The notes under the pieces: generated by a model
What the model saw: only the letters and a program-made list of their open reading frames with translations
Told to the model about the DNA's origin: nothing
Databases searched by the model: none
Source of the DNA: Azospirillum sp.
Lineage (GTDB): Bacteria > Pseudomonadota > Alphaproteobacteria > CACIAM-22H2
NCBI GenBank assembly: GCA_020249045.1
Contig: JADCGK010000142.1
Coordinates: 1-42,974, forward strand
DNA: 42,974 nt
Direction: 5' to 3'
Shown: in pieces, positions 3,612-12,102 of the stretch
Numbering within the stretch: position 1 is the stretch's first letter
Layout of the letters: each line of letters begins with the position of its first letter
Translations under genes and position numbers: made by a program

Positions 3612-4682
3612 TCACGCCTCGTCGAAATCGAGCACGACCTCCTCGGTCGTCGGGTGCGCCTGACAGGCGAGCACAAAGCCCTTTTCGAGCTCCCACGGCG
3701 CCAAGGCGTAGTTGACGTCCATCTTGACCGCGCCCGCGCGCGTCAGACAGCGGCAGGTCGAACACACGCCGCCTTTGCAGCTGTGCGGAATCTCGAGGCC
3801 GCGCGCGAGCCCCGCATCGACGATCGACGGGCCGTCGAAGGGCACGTCGAACGCCTGACGGATGCCGTCGCGGATCACGGTGACGCGCGCGGCACCCGTG
3901 CGCGCCGCCGAAAGAACGGGCGCGCCCGCGGGCTGCGCCGAGTCCGGGGCCGCGAACAACTCCGTGTGGAGGGCCGCGGGTGCCGCACCCAATCGGACCA
4001 AGGCGGCCTTGGCCGTTTCGATCATCGCGAGCGGACCGCACAGATAGACCCCGTGCAGCGCCGCCGGATCGAACAGCGCAAGCGCCAAGCCTTCGAGCTT
4101 GGCTTCGTCCAAACGGCCGTCGAGCAGAAAGGTATCCTGCTTCTCGCGGCTCAAGACATGCGCGACCGAAAAACGCGTCATGTGCCGGTTCTTGAGGTCC
4201 TCGACCGCCTCGCGAAAGGCGATCGAATCGACCGTCTTGTTGGCGTAGATCATCGCCACGCGCGACCCGGGCTCCTCGGCCAGGATCGTCTTGGCGATCG
4301 ACAGGATCGGCGTGATCCCGCTGCCCGCCGCCACCAGCAGATAGGCCCGCGAGGCCGCCGGATCGAGTGCGGGCGTGAACCGCCCCTCGGGCGTGCCGAC
4401 GTCGACCACATCGCCCGGCTTCAGACTGTCGTTGGCCCAGGTCGAAACACGCCCGCCCGGCACGCGCTTGATGCCCACGCGCAGGACGCCTTCGTGGGGC
4501 GCCGCACAGATCGAATAGCTGCGCCGCTGCGCGACGCCGTCGATGGGCGTGCGAAGCGTCACGTATTGGCCCGCCCGAAAGCGATAGGCGTCGGCCAGCG
4601 CCGGAGGTACCGCGAAGGTCACCGCGACGCAGTCGCGGGTCTGGCGTTCGATCGCGGCGACGGAAAGAGCGTGGAATTCCAT
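3612..4682 (-). CDS. paaE: Phenylacetyl-CoA 1,2-epoxidase reductase subunit PaaE
   Basis: FAD/NAD(P) reductase motifs RAGQYVTLR, RSYSICAAP, YLLVAAGSGITPILSI, plus C-terminal 2Fe-2S ferredoxin SCKGGVCSTCRC...FVLACQAHP. Confidence 0.93.
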   Translation of the reverse strand: MEFHALSVAAIERQTRDCVAVTFAVPPALADAYRFRAGQYVTLRTPIDGVAQRRSYSICAAPHEGVLRVGIKRVPGGRVSTWANDSLKPGDVVDVGTPEGRFTPALDPAASRAYLLVAAGSGITPILSIAKTILAEEPGSRVAMIYANKTVDSIAFREAVEDLKNRHMTRFSVAHVLSREKQDTFLLDGRLDEAKLEGLALALFDPAALHGVYLCGPLAMIETAKAALVRLGAAPAALHTELFAAPDSAQPAGAPVLSAARTGAARVTVIRDGIRQAFDVPFDGPSIVDAGLARGLEIPHSCKGGVCSTCRCLTRAGAVKMDVNYALAPWELEKGFVLACQAHPTTEEVVLDFDEA

Positions 4683-5197
4683 CAGATGCACTTGAAGTAT
4701 TCGAAGGGTTCGCGGCAGGCGAGACAGCGATAGAGCGCCTTGCAGGCGGTCGAGCCGAACTCGCTGGTCTTTTCGACCCGGCCGCTGTCGCAGCGCGGAC
4801 AAGCGGGGCGGACGTCCTCGGCGAACAGGGCGCGCTTGCCCTTCGGCGCTTGGCCGATGGGCGGCGCTATTCCGTAGGCGCGGAGTTTCTCGCGCGCGGC
4901 CGGGCCGATCCAATCGGTCGTCCATGCGGGGTCGGTCACGGTCGCGATTCGCACCGGGCCCAGCCCCGCGCGTTCCAGCGCCAGGCGCGCATCGAGGGCG
5001 ATCGCGGCGGTCGCGGGACAGCCGGAATAGGTCGGAGTCAAATCGACCTCCAAACCTGCAGCGCCGTCGCGGACCGCCCGGACGACGCCGAGATCGACGA
5101 GCGACAAGGCGGGCACTTCCGGATCGGGCACGTGCGCGAGCACGTCCCACGCCCGGGCGACGCGATCGGATGCCGGTGAAGCGACGGCGTTCACCAT
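4682..5197 (-). CDS. paaD: Phenylacetate degradation protein PaaD (DUF59-like, C-terminal zinc ribbon)
   Basis: AWDVLAHVPDPEVPALSLVDLGVVRAV...PTYSGCPAT...CPRCDSGRVEKTSEFGSTACKALYRCLACREPFEYFKCI. Confidence 0.93.
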   Translation of the reverse strand: MVNAVASPASDRVARAWDVLAHVPDPEVPALSLVDLGVVRAVRDGAAGLEVDLTPTYSGCPATAAIALDARLALERAGLGPVRIATVTDPAWTTDWIGPAAREKLRAYGIAPPIGQAPKGKRALFAEDVRPACPRCDSGRVEKTSEFGSTACKALYRCLACREPFEYFKCI

Positions 5198-5943
5198 GTC
5201 GCGCCCGGATAGGCGCGCGGCAGGAACTGCATGGTCGCGAGCAGATGGCCGAGCGCTTCGGAATGGCGGCCGGCGTAACCGCCCGTCTGGGTCCAGCCGT
5301 CCTTCGGGCGGCGCAACGTCGCCGCGCGCAGCACTTCGTCGACCGTGGCGTTCCAAGCGGGCTTCAGCGCGGCCGGGTCCGGAACCGAATCGCCGAGCGC
5401 CGCCACGACCGCGTCGGTTTCGAAGAACTCGCCCGTGTATTCCCACAGCGCATCGACCGCGGCTTGCGCGCGCGCGTGGCTTTCGGCCGTACCGTCGCCC
5501 AAGCGCACGACCCATTCGCCCGAATGGCGCAAATGATAATGCGCTTCCTTGGCCGCCTTGGCGGCGATGCCCGCGAGCCGGGCGTCGCTTGCGCGCGCCA
5601 AGCCCGCGAAGGCTTCGACCTGCCAGGCGTCGAACAGGAATTGCCGGACCATCGTGTGGGCGAAATCGCCGTTGGGCCGCTCGCACAGCAGCGCGTTGCG
5701 GAAGTCCCAAGCGTCGCGCGAATAGGCGAGCGCGTCCGCATCGCGGCCTTTGCCTTCCAAGGTTCCGGCATAGGCGAGGAATTGTTCGGCCTGACCGGTC
5801 AGATCGAGGCCGATATTGGCGAGCGCGATATCCTCCTCGAGCTCGGGCGCATGGCCGCACCATTCCGCGACGCGATGGCCCAGGATCAGGCACGAATCCC
5901 CGTGCCGCAGCAGATACTCGAACAAGGCCGCCGCGCGTTCCAT
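5191..5943 (-). CDS. paaC: Phenylacetyl-CoA epoxidase structural subunit PaaC
   Basis: MERAAALFEYLLRHGDSCLILGHRVAEWCGHAPELEEDIALANIGLDLTGQAEQFLAYAG..., located between paaB and paaD. Confidence 0.93.
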   Translation of the reverse strand: MERAAALFEYLLRHGDSCLILGHRVAEWCGHAPELEEDIALANIGLDLTGQAEQFLAYAGTLEGKGRDADALAYSRDAWDFRNALLCERPNGDFAHTMVRQFLFDAWQVEAFAGLARASDARLAGIAAKAAKEAHYHLRHSGEWVVRLGDGTAESHARAQAAVDALWEYTGEFFETDAVVAALGDSVPDPAALKPAWNATVDEVLRAATLRRPKDGWTQTGGYAGRHSEALGHLLATMQFLPRAYPGATW

Positions 5944-5945
5944 CG

Positions 5946-6233
5946 TCAGATGTTCTTCACGCCGTCGGGGATGTTGTAGAAGGTCGGATGCCGGTAGACC
6001 TTGTCGGTCATCGGTTCGAACATCTCGTCCTTGCGCGCGGGATCGGACGCCACGATGTCCGCCGAACGCGCGACCCACACGCTGACGCCCTCGGCGCGCC
6101 GGCAATAGACGTCGCGCGCCATGTCGACCGCCATCGCGCCGTCCACCGCGTGCAGCGAGCCGACATGACGGTGCGCGAGCCCGCTGCGCGAGCGCACGAA
6201 AACCTCCCACAGCGGCCAATCCTTGCGTTCCAT
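5946..6233 (-). CDS. paaB: Phenylacetyl-CoA epoxidase subunit PaaB
   Basis: MERKDWPLWEVFVRSRSGLAHRHVGSLHAVDGAMAVDMARDVYCRRAEGVSVWVARSADI. Confidence 0.93.
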   Translation of the reverse strand: MERKDWPLWEVFVRSRSGLAHRHVGSLHAVDGAMAVDMARDVYCRRAEGVSVWVARSADIVASDPARKDEMFEPMTDKVYRHPTFYNIPDGVKNI

Positions 6234-6242
6234 GGGAACCGC

Positions 6243-7247
<1,005 letters not shown>

Positions 7248-7279
7248 GACCCGCGTTCCTCCCGGGAACCAGGGCCACA

Positions 7280-7325
7280 ATATGTCACGGTTTGGAACGC
7301 TTTTGAAGCCCAACTTGTGACATAT
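7280..7325. promoter_or_regulatory. 46-bp imperfect palindrome upstream of paaA, candidate PaaX operator
   Basis: ATATGTCAC ggt TTGG ... CCAA ctt GTGACATAT: 9-bp perfect outer arms and 4-bp inner arms. It overlaps the paaX stop codon and lies 33 nt upstream of the paaA ATG. Confidence 0.6.
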
Positions 7326-8184
7326 GACCGGCGGCGAAACGCCGCCGCAAGGACTTGTCCGCGCGCGGCAATTTCCCGTCCGGCCCGGCGCCGTGCGCGT
7401 CGAGCCACGCTTCCGAGGCCGCGAGCAGCGCCCGGTAACGGCCGGCGAGCCGCGCGCGCGCGCGCGTCCCCGGCCAGTCGCGCGGCAGAAGTCCCGCGGG
7501 CAGGCCCGGATCGCGCAGCGCCAGGCGGCGGAATTCGTGGATCAGGATCAATCGGGCACGCAAGCACCGTTCGGGATCGCGCGGACCCGGCCCGGCGGGC
7601 GCGAGACGCCGGGCGAGATCCGACCAAGCCCGGCCCAAGCCCGGCAGGTCCCATGCGCGGGCGATCAATGCGCGCGCGGGTCCTTCGGGCGCCGCCGGGC
7701 CCGCGACGATCGCCGGGCGCCGGTCGTCGGGCAGGCTTGCGAGCACGGAGGCAAGCGCGTCGGGGTCCGCATCGGGATGGATCATCGTCGTCGGGCCGGC
7801 GGAAGCAAAGCCGATCCATTCGAACGGTCGGCGCGCGGCAACGCGCGCCGGCATCGGCGGGAATATCGCCACCCGCCAAGGCCCGGCGCGCTTGGCTTCG
7901 GGGACGGCATAAATCCGCCGGGCCGCTTCGCGCGTGCGCGCGGCCCCTTCGGGCGCCAGAGCGTAGAAGGCGCGCTTGCCCGCGCGCCGCGGTTCGAGCC
8001 AGCCCTCGGCCACCAAGCGCGACAAGGCCGTGCGCAATTGGGAGTCGTTGACGCCCAGCATTCCGGCGATGGCCGCGAGCGTGGCGTAGGCCGCGACGCC
8101 CCCGCGTGGAACGATCAGATCGCCGAAGATCGTGACGACGAGAGAGCCCGCATTCGTCCCGTCGCGGCGCGCGCGTCGGCGCAT
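7285..8184 (-). CDS. paaX: PaaX-family transcriptional regulator of phenylacetate degradation
   Basis: [67 protein letters not shown]...[32 protein letters not shown], immediately upstream of paaA. Confidence 0.93.
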
Positions 8185-8185
8185 C

Positions 8186-8782
8186 TCAAGCGTAGAAGCG
8201 CGCGAGGCTCGCTTCGATCTGCCGGTGCAACTCGGCGTCGATGTCGCGCATCATTTCCTGGGTCATTTCGTACCAGACGCGCTCGCGGTCGTTGAGCGAG
8301 ATGTTCTCCAGCACCGAGCGCTGGCGCACGGCCGTGGCCGTGGCGATGCCGTCGCGGAAATTGCCGCGCTGCTGGCGGATTTCGACCGCGCATTCGATGC
8401 GCCCGTCGTAACGCTGGGCGGGTTCGGTCGTGAACGTGCCGCGGAAGCCTTGCGTGCGCGGCAGATCGGTTTCGGTCACGCGCGCGTCGAGCACCACGAA
8501 GCGCACGAAGCGTTCGCCGCGGCCCGACGCCGCGAGGCGTTCGGCCGCCCACAGACGCAATGTCGCCTCGGGCGTGCGCGCGAACAGATGTTCGACATGG
8601 GGCGGGGCGAGCGGCGCCTGATAGTCGAACGCGACCTCGACGCGCAAGGCCTCGAAGCGGAACGTGCCGCGCGGGGCGAAGCTGATCGGCGGGAATTGCG
8701 GGGGCGGCGGCAGGTCGGCGCAGGCGGCGAGCGCGGGCGCGGCCGCGGCGGCGGCGAGGAACGAGCGGCGGGACAGCGTCAT
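8186..8782 (-). CDS. Conserved putative lipoprotein of unknown function
   Basis: MTLSRRSFLAAAAAAPALAACADLPPPP: twin-arginine-like signal plus LAAC lipobox; about 198 aa; no recognised domain. Confidence 0.72.
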   Translation of the reverse strand: MTLSRRSFLAAAAAAPALAACADLPPPPQFPPISFAPRGTFRFEALRVEVAFDYQAPLAPPHVEHLFARTPEATLRLWAAERLAASGRGERFVRFVVLDARVTETDLPRTQGFRGTFTTEPAQRYDGRIECAVEIRQQRGNFRDGIATATAVRQRSVLENISLNDRERVWYEMTQEMMRDIDAELHRQIEASLARFYA

Positions 8783-8823
8783 CGGGGGTCTCCGTCTTCG
8801 GGGCGCGGGCGAGTGTGCCGCGA

Positions 8824-9786
8824 TCAATCGGCGGCGTAAACCGCGTCGAGATCCGCAAACGCGTGCGTGGTGTTGCAGAACTCGCATGTGAGACGCACCG
8901 CGCCGTCCGGATCGCGCAAGGTTTCGATTTCCGTGCGCGGGATCGCGCGCAACGCCCCGCGCATGCGTCCGGGGCTGCAGCGGCATTTGTGGACGAGCGC
9001 AAGCGGCCGGTAGATCGCCACCCCTTCGGCCAGAAACAGCCGGTCGACGAGCTTCCAGGGCGGCAGGTCGGGATCGACGAGTTCGGCGCCCGTCGCCGAC
9101 CCCATCAGGATCATCGCGCGGCGCCAACCCTCCTCCTCGGCGTCGCGCTTGGCGGCGTCGATGGCCTTGTCCATCCCTTCGGCCGAGCCTTGCGCGTCTT
9201 CGGGGGGCAAACGCTGGATCATCATGGCGCCCGCGCGCCAGTTCAGCACCGCCCCGTCGCCGGGCGCCGCCACGGCCGCCACGGCGACCTTGATGCCGGC
9301 CTCGAACTGCTCGGACTGGCGGAAGTAATGATGCGCGCATTCGGCCAGCGTCGAACCGTCGAGTTCGACGATGCCTTGATAGCGCTCGGCCGCCTCGCCC
9401 TGGTCGACCGTGAAGGCGAGATAACCGGCGCCGAACAGCTTCGGCACGGAAACCGGACCCTCGCCCAGCGCCTTGACGCGCGCCGCGTCGAACTGCGCGT
9501 AGCCGCGCAGATGGCCCGAGGAGGTCACGTCGGCCACGAGCATGCGCACCGGCCCGTCGCCTTTGGTCTGCAGCGTGAAAACGCCGTCGAATTTCAGCGT
9601 CGCGGCGAGCAGCGAAGCGATGGCGAGTGCCTCGGCCAGTGCCTCGGCCACGGGGCGCGGATAGGCGTGGCGGTGCAGGATCGTGTCGAGTGCCGCCCCC
9701 AGCCGCACCGCACGGCCGCGCAAAGCGGACGATTCGATCTGGAACGGCAGGACGACATCGTCTTCGGGAATGCCGGCGCGGTTCAC
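8824..9786 (-). CDS. hslO: Redox-regulated chaperone Hsp33
   Basis: C-terminal CKCSPGRMRGALRAI...LTCEFCNTTHAF (CxC...CxxC) and N-terminal Hsp33 fold sequence. Confidence 0.93.
   Translation of the reverse strand: MNRAGIPEDDVVLPFQIESSALRGRAVRLGAALDTILHRHAYPRPVAEALAEALAIASLLAATLKFDGVFTLQTKGDGPVRMLVADVTSSGHLRGYAQFDAARVKALGEGPVSVPKLFGAGYLAFTVDQGEAAERYQGIVELDGSTLAECAHHYFRQSEQFEAGIKVAVAAVAAPGDGAVLNWRAGAMMIQRLPPEDAQGSAEGMDKAIDAAKRDAEEEGWRRAMILMGSATGAELVDPDLPPWKLVDRLFLAEGVAIYRPLALVHKCRCSPGRMRGALRAIPRTEIETLRDPDGAVRLTCEFCNTTHAFADLDAVYAAD
9626..9649. repeat. Two perfect tandem copies of the 12-mer AGTGCCTCGGCC inside hslO
   Basis: 9626-9637 and 9638-9649 identical; encodes AEALAEAL on the minus strand. 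Confidence 0.85.
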
Positions 9787-9799
9787 GCGCGCTTCTCCG

Positions 9800-10735
9800 T
9801 CACGCCATGCACCAGGCGAGAATGCCCTTTTGCACGTGCAGGCGGTTTTCCGCCTCGTCCCACACGGCCGATTGCGGACCGTCGATGACGCCTTCGGTCA
9901 CCTCTTCGCCGCGATGGGCGGGCAGGCAGTGCAAGAACATCGCGTCGGCCTTGGCCATGCCCATCAGGCGTTCGTCGACGCGATAGGGAACGAGCATGTT
10001 GTGCCGCTTTTCGCGGTTTTCGCGCTCGCGCGCGTTGCCTTCCTGATCCATCGAGACCCACGTGTCGGTGACGACGGCGTCCGCACCGCGCACGGCGGCT
10101 TCGGGATCGGTCAGCAATTGGATGCGCGCGCCCTCGCGCCGCGCCCAGGCGAGCACGTCGTCGGACGGCCGCAACGGTTCGGGGCAGGCGAGGCGCAGCT
10201 CGAAGGCGAAGCGCTGGGCCGCATGGATCCAGGACGCGGCGACGTTGTTGCCGTCGCCCGCCCAAGCCACGACCTTGCCGGCGATCGAGCCCTTGCGCTC
10301 CTCGAACGTCATCACGTCGGCCATCACCTGGCACGGATGCGAACGTTCGGTCAGGCCGTTGATCACCGGCACCGAGGCATGGCGGACCATTTCGTCGAGA
10401 TGCGCGGATTTGTTGGTGCGCAGCATGATCGCGTCGCAATAGCGCGAGAGAACCCGCGCGGTGTCGGCGATGGTTTCGCCGCGGCCGAGCTGGGTGTCGT
10501 GATGGGTGAGGATCACCGCTTCGCCGCCGAGCTGGCGGATGCCGACTTCGAACGAGACCCGCGTGCGCGTCGAGGGCTTCTCGAAGATCATCGCCAGCGT
10601 CTTGCCGGCGAGCGGCTTGTCGCCGGCGCCGAGCCCGCGCTGGGCCTTGTACTTGGCGCCGAGGTCGAGGATCGCGCGCAACGCGCCGGTTTCCAGCGCG
10701 TCGAGATCCAGGAAGTGTTTGGGCGTTTTCGGCAT
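9800..10735 (-). CDS. argF: Ornithine carbamoyltransferase
   Basis: [30 protein letters not shown]...[21 protein letters not shown]...[14 protein letters not shown]...[14 protein letters not shown]. Alternative start at 10747. Confidence 0.95.
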
Positions 10736-10743
10736 GGGCGTCC

Positions 10744-11949
10744 TCATCCGGCCTTGCGCGCGGCGTTTTCGGCGCGCAGGGCGGCGCACGCTTTTTCGAC
10801 CGCGTCCACCGCTTCGGCGACGTGTTTGGGTTCGGCGACCAGCGGCGCCAGGATGCGCACGACGTTGTCGCCGGCACCCGCCGTCAACAGGCCCTGGCCG
10901 CGCAGCGCCTTGACCATGTCCTGGTTCGGCACCTTGCACTTGAGGCCGAGCAGCAGGCCCATGCCGCGCGAATCCTCGAACATGTCGGGATTGCGTTGCA
11001 CGAGGCCGTGCAGCTGTTGTTTGACGTGCGAAGCGAGGGCTTCGACCTTCTCGAAGAACCCGGGGGCGAGCATCACGTCGAGCACGGCGTTGCCCGCCGC
11101 CATGGCGAGCGGGTTGCCGCCGTAGGTCGACCCGTGCGTGCCCGCGACCATGCCAGCGGCCGCTTCGGCCGTGGCGAGGCACGCGCCCACCGGAAAGCCG
11201 TTGCCCAACGCCTTGGCGACCGACATCACGTCGGGCGTCACGCCGGACCATTCGTAGGCGAAAAGCTTGCCCGTGCGGCCCATGCCGGTTTGGATTTCGT
11301 CGAAGAACAGCAGCAGGCCGTGCTTGTCGCACAACGCGCGCAAACCCTTGAGGCATTGCGGCGGTACGGGGCGCACGCCGCCCTCGCCCTGCACGGGTTC
11401 GATCAGGATGCCGGCGGTTTGCGGACCGATCGCCTTTTCGATCGCCTCGTGATCGCCGAAGGGAACCTGATCGAAGCCGTCGACCGGCGGGCCGAACCCT
11501 TCGAGATATTTCTTCTGCCCGCCGGCGGCGAGCGTGGCGAGCGTCCGGCCGTGGAACGCGCCCTCGAACGTCAGGATCCGATAGCGTTCCGGTTGGCCGC
11601 GATGGGCGTGATACTTGCGGACGACCTTGATCGCGCACTCGTTCGCCTCGGCGCCGGAATTGGCGAAGAAAACCGTGTCGGCGAAGGTCGCGGCGACCAG
11701 GCGCTCGGCCAGCTTTTGCTGCTGGGCGATCGGGAAGATGTTCGAGGTGTGCCAGACCTTGTTCATCTGCGCGCTCACCTCGGCGACCAAATGCGGGTGC
11801 GCATGGCCCAAGCCCGTGACCGCGATGCCGCAAGCGAAGTCGAGATAACGTCGGCCGTCGGTGCCCCACAGATACGGGCCTTCGCCGCGCTCGAAACCGA
11901 TTTCGGCGCGCGCATAGGTCGGCATCACGGCGGGGAAAGCGGCGGTCAC
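10744..11949 (-). CDS. argD: Acetylornithine aminotransferase (GTG start)
   Basis: [45 protein letters not shown]...[22 protein letters not shown]...[17 protein letters not shown] at 11949 preceded by GAGGAGGAAGGAG. Confidence 0.94.
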
Positions 11950-11981
11950 GATGCTACTCCTTCCTCCTCGAAAACGAACAA

Positions 11982-12000
11982 GGCGCCTTCTTTCGGCGCC
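11982..12000 (-). promoter_or_regulatory. argD leader hairpin GGCGCC-GAAAGAA-GGCGCC followed by TTGTTCGTTTTC
   Basis: 6-bp GC stem with 7-nt loop and a U-rich tract on the argD sense strand, ending 33 nt before the GTG start. Confidence 0.5.
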
Positions 12001-12010
12001 GGAAACCCCC

Positions 12011-12039
12011 AGTATCCGGGCGCTTCCCCGAACTGTCAA
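12011..12039 (-). promoter_or_regulatory. Sigma-70 type promoter TTGACA-N17-GATACT for argD
   Basis: Perfect -35 (complement 12034-12039), 17-bp spacer, 4/6 -10 (complement 12011-12016). Confidence 0.65.
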
Positions 12040-12102
12040 ATACTGCGCCCGCCGCATAGCTGAAATCTAGCTTTTGCAACAATGCCTTAGAAAATTGGCG
12101 GT

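Follow-up and report, generated by a model that had tools for sequence, protein, structure and literature searches.

The closest described systems are the PaaX boxes of E. coli and Pseudomonas and the PaaR operator of Burkholderia cenocepacia. The E. coli PaaX site is TGATTC(N27)GAATCA (review PMC9493321, crediting Kim et al., 2004), and the E. coli Pa genome carries TGATTC-N27-GAATCG before paaA. In Pseudomonas sp. Y2, the PaaX box of the styrene and paa genes is described as similar to that of E. coli (PMC9493321). The B. cenocepacia operator, ACCGACCGGTCGGT, is bound by PaaR, a TetR-type repressor (PMC2770484). For PaaX operators of Alphaproteobacteria, we found no description in the open-licence papers searched.

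We analyzed a whole stretch of 42,974 nt (contig JADCGK010000142.1), here called the window, in which the genes of interest lie on the minus strand. A candidate PaaX operator occupies positions 7280 to 7325 (minus), with TGTCAC-N28-GTGACA half-sites set within 9-bp perfect arms, so that the whole dyad reads ATATGTCAC-N28-GTGACATAT. Laid out from 7280 to 7325, it consists of ATATGTCAC, GGTTTGG, AACGCTTTTGAAGC, CCAACTT, and GTGACATAT; on the minus strand, it is ATATGTCAC AAGTTGGGCTTCAAAAGCGTTCCAAACC GTGACATAT. The outer arms pair at nine of nine positions and the inner TTGG/CCAA arms at four of four, about a common center at 7302.5. The distal arm, on the paaX side (7317 to 7325; minus-strand letters ATATGTCAC), lies within the paaX coding sequence, while the proximal arm, nearer paaA (7280 to 7288; minus-strand letters GTGACATAT), holds the paaX stop codon (TGA, 7287 to 7285) and most of the presumed -10 hexamer. 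The original prediction of a 46-bp palindrome with 9-bp outer and 4-bp inner arms, spanning the paaX stop, thus matches the sequence exactly in letters and coordinates.

The layout of this dyad is the same as that of the E. coli box: ahead of paaA stand two inverted TG...C hexamers with about 27 to 28 bp between them, and a PaaX-family repressor is encoded in the genome. The spacer is 28 bp here, 27 bp in E. coli, and 25 to 28 bp among relatives, and the dyad sits beside paaX with 32 nt between it and the paaA ATG (7247). The hexamers themselves differ, as TGTCAC has only T, G, and the final C in common with TGATTC (three of six letters). Gene order differs as well: the E. coli cluster has paaX at its opposite end, beside paaY, whereas here the dyad overlaps both the paaX 3' end and the presumed promoter hexamers. 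Pseudomonas sp. Y2 shares the repressor family and, as the review reports, the effector. The B. cenocepacia PaaR operator is also an inverted repeat in the paaA core promoter, with repression relieved by phenylacetyl-CoA, but it is a contiguous 14- to 15-bp palindrome of unrelated letters bound by an unrelated repressor.

The paaX gene (7285 to 8184, minus; ATG at 8184 or 8163) encodes a predicted PaaX-family repressor with both PF07848 (2.3e-19) and PF08223 (3.9e-17) domains above the gathering score, and its final codons (13 residues and the stop) fall within the dyad. The predicted protein aligns end to end with the E. coli PaaX structure 8a39 (E value of 7e-32, over 6 to 285). It also matches the NCBIfam equivalog TIGR02277 over its full length at 203.2 bits, below the cut-off of 264.55, and is thus read as a diverged PaaX. 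Past the dyad is paaA (6243 to 7247, minus), which opens the presumed target operon and is identified unambiguously by profile (TIGR02156, 536.6 bits against a cut-off of 280) and is preceded by a Shine-Dalgarno-like GGGAGGAA at 7256 to 7263 (minus). Downstream of paaA, the open frames at 3612 to 6242 (minus) correspond to paaB (5946 to 6233), paaC (ending at 5191), paaD (ending at 4682), and paaE (ending at 3612), names that come from reading the translations rather than from a profile search. In the other direction, the minus strand of 7285 to 12057 also carries argD, argF, an Hsp33 chaperone gene, and, directly upstream of paaX, a short gene without a name whose end nearly touches the start of paaX. 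With the same strand and hardly any gap, paaX may be cotranscribed with the arginine genes.

As a bare palindrome, the dyad is at chance level and unexceptional: this GC-rich window contains 25 dyads whose arms are 9 bp and whose loops span 3 to 40 nt, compared with 22 to 41 (about 30) in ten simulations under a first-order Markov model. What sets it apart is its specific sequence, and we count it as real because that sequence is conserved. With up to three mismatches allowed, TRTGTYAC-N28-GTRACAYA had a single match in the window, with no mismatches, against 0.08 expected. The exact TGTCAC-N25-29-GTGACA occurs once in the 3.87-Mb genome, and of the 385 genomes of the class, 3 contain the strict pattern TATGTYAC-N25-28-GTRACATA and 1 contains the reversed control.

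To follow the dyad across species, we collected loci via PaaA, both from relatives and from named genomes, and called a dyad where TRTGWYWC-N25-28-GWRWCAYA matched at 14 or more of 16 positions with a Markov p of 0.05 or less. Among Pseudomonadota with paaX nearby, 41 of 46 loci carried the dyad upstream of paaA, as judged with a degenerate consensus derived partly from the same loci. Where PaaX is encoded away from the locus, 6 of 11 loci had the dyad, and among loci from genomes with no detected PaaX_C domain, 2 of 20 did. Dyad presence was thereby tied to PaaX presence, with a Fisher p of 1e-8, a value uncorrected for relatedness among the loci. This tally leaves aside 16 further loci from genomes unchecked for PaaX, three of which carry the dyad.

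All four paaX-paaA loci of the genus (the one in the window and those of G007, G008, and G009) have a dyad of the form RTRTCAC-like-N28-GTGACATA, located 28 to 33 nt before paaA, even though their PaaX proteins share only 51 to 54% identity; genus members without paaA also have no PaaX. In Beta- and Gammaproteobacteria, divergently arranged paaX-paaA loci retain the dyad. Within the genus, the paaX 3' end and the dyad overlap; at most other loci the dyad starts 0 to 56 nt past the paaX stop, a distance that is blurred where frames run beyond paaX (e.g., L047 and L068). Two MAG loci, L041 and L051, have a good dyad before paaA although their genomes yielded no PaaX_C domain; either incomplete bins or a diverged repressor may account for this. 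At two other loci, L162 and L174, TGATAC-type dyads (TATGATAC-N25-26-GTATCAT[AT]) lie upstream of paaX itself, which suggests autoregulation or another target there.

The half-site letters vary with the lineage of PaaX. This locus has TGTCAC half-sites, most other Alphaproteobacteria have TGTTAC, and Beta- and Gammaproteobacteria have TGATAC or TGATTC. We compared these letters with the predicted recognition helix at 46 loci with a scorable dyad, excluding loci with weak dyads and judging the half-site on the left arm. At position 4 of the helix (the F-G-E-R-F-V stretch of E. coli), Arg accompanied TGA in 18 of 18 cases and a residue other than Arg accompanied TGT in 28 of 28; counted per arm, this rule had 5 exceptions in 92. 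Within the non-Arg set, a Ser-Gln helix went with TCAC in both arms in six of seven cases. Seven of 23 held-out loci had a significant dyad, and all six with a readable helix obeyed the Arg rule. On a PaaX tree built with the helix columns removed, two label changes suffice, so the covariation is a clade-level correlation rather than repeated independent evidence; we dropped it as independent proof and kept it as a correlation. TGTCAC is best read as the half-site variant of a PaaX lineage with an N-[DG]-S-Q recognition helix. Since the letters vary by PaaX clade, TGATTC defines the E. coli type and not the whole family.

The original prediction placed a promoter, TTCAAA-N17-CATATT, across the dyad; its hexamers are in the stated positions, but it is weak by consensus. 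The presumed -35 hexamer (TTCAAA, 7302 to 7307, minus) lies between the arms, 19 nt from the proximal arm, and the presumed -10 hexamer (CATATT, 7279 to 7284, minus) lies on the proximal arm. Together they match the consensus at 8 of 12 positions, and a consensus promoter scan with a threshold of 9 of 12 accordingly listed nothing at the dyad. Across 42 aligned loci, the proximal arm leads into a hexamer that is CATATT-like in most relatives, and there are 27 TTG trinucleotides 16 to 19 nt before that arm, a tally to which one locus can contribute more than once. The window's 19-nt offset is within this range. This register fits a sigma-70 promoter with its -35 between the arms and its -10 on the proximal arm. 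The distal arm, lying outside any -35 or -10 element, is conserved in relatives nonetheless, as would be expected of a site bound by protein. Relatives do not keep the inner TTGG/CCAA arms, which are probably incidental.

A palindrome at chance frequency in a GC-rich genome could be fortuitous, with the proximal arm alone functional as a -10 element, and the count of 25 dyads against about 30 expected is what this would produce. Conservation already contradicts this explanation, as both arms, including the non-promoter distal arm, are strongly conserved in dozens of loci, and the strict pattern is nearly absent elsewhere (3 of 385 class genomes); we find it barely credible. The inverted repeat could instead act as RNA, as a hairpin between paaX and paaA serving as an attenuator, processing element, or mRNA stability element. 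The RNA does fold with all nine plus four arm pairs (minimum free energy of -35.5 kcal/mol over 101 nt), but the fold z-score is only -1.56, and 7200 to 7400 contains neither a G+C stem followed by a T run nor any terminator-like T run. Relatives also retain the letters of each arm yet break the pairing (e.g., TATGTTAC opposite GTTACATA), and their inner arms are gone; divergent paaX-paaA loci, which have no common transcript, still keep the dyad. We rejected an intrinsic terminator on these grounds and regard an RNA hairpin as extremely unlikely.

If the dyad is bound by a protein, that protein might be another paa regulator, such as PaaR of the TetR type or some global factor, with the closeness of paaX incidental. 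Many bacteria, Alphaproteobacteria among them, have their paa genes under PaaR control (PMC13186573), and the two dyad-bearing MAG loci without a detected PaaX would be compatible with such a regulator. However, dyad presence tracks PaaX presence, and the dyad letters track the PaaX helix. The PaaR operator ACCGACCGGTCGGT has no match near paaA in the window with up to three mismatches allowed, and we rejected a PaaR operator at 7280 for want of any such palindrome. Another regulator at this site is therefore very unlikely.

The dyad is very probably the operator of the adjacent PaaX, overlapping the paaABCDE promoter and carrying a lineage-specific half-site. We favor this reading because the dyad is conserved, is tied to PaaX presence, has an E. 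coli-like layout, has a half-site that tracks the recognition helix, and fits a strict pattern that is rare. The original prediction had proposed such an operator for paaABCDE, with a half-site unlike the E. coli motif. It had also called for a search of relatives with the same paaX-paaA order, and in that search the palindrome proved conserved (the 41 of 46 paaX-linked loci above). The proposed operator and its distinct half-site are thus supported at the sequence level by this conservation, the E. coli-like spacing, and a TGTCAC half-site that differs from TGATTC in step with the PaaX helix.

The PaaX proteins of E. coli and Pseudomonas provide the model for binding, dimer geometry, effector, and repression at this site. 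By that analogy, a PaaX dimer would place one winged helix on each half-site, TGTCAC and GTGACA, the centers of which are about 34 bp apart, just above three helical turns. Bound PaaX would cover the -35 and -10 hexamers of the phenylacetate-degradation genes paaABCDE and exclude RNA polymerase. Accumulating phenylacetyl-CoA would then bind PaaX and release it from the DNA, allowing transcription of paaABCDE, which encodes the phenylacetyl-CoA epoxidase.

A new detail is that, in this genus, the putative operator is built into the closing codons of paaX. With the operator inside paaX itself, a roadblock on paaX transcripts is conceivable. In the fuller version of this idea, which we consider speculative and on balance unlikely, bound PaaX would shut the paaABCDE promoter and at the same time roadblock read-through of paaX, limiting its own full mRNA (3'-end autoregulation), with a Ser-Gln helix reading TGTCAC where an Arg helix reads TGATWC.

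We looked for a wider PaaX regulon and rejected it at the stringency used. The exact hexamers TGTCAC-N25-29-GTGACA do not occur elsewhere in the genome, and with up to three mismatches, there is one other match, on contig C35. The paaK gene lies on a separate contig near a thiolase gene (C24 of G000, 6372 to 7631), and the first 16 kb of that contig contain no PaaX-type dyad. No fused PaaZ scored above the cut-off in this genome. With no further site detected at this stringency, paaABCDE may be the sole target of PaaX in this genome. An apparent second paaX at the end of the 4.1-kb contig C20 of G000 is a 104-bp piece (3991 to 4094; L034 1544 to 1647) that is 98% identical to window positions 7528 to 7631, within paaX; a truncated gene for an aldehyde dehydrogenase adjoins it. 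This fragment is most likely an assembly chimera, and we set it aside.

For the PaaX family, these comparisons name the recognition helix residues that most likely set specificity. They also yield operators resolved by clade, with TGATTC or TGATAC, TGTTAC, and TGTCAC half-sites and spacers of 25 to 28 bp, which would allow PaaX targets to be predicted in Alphaproteobacteria.
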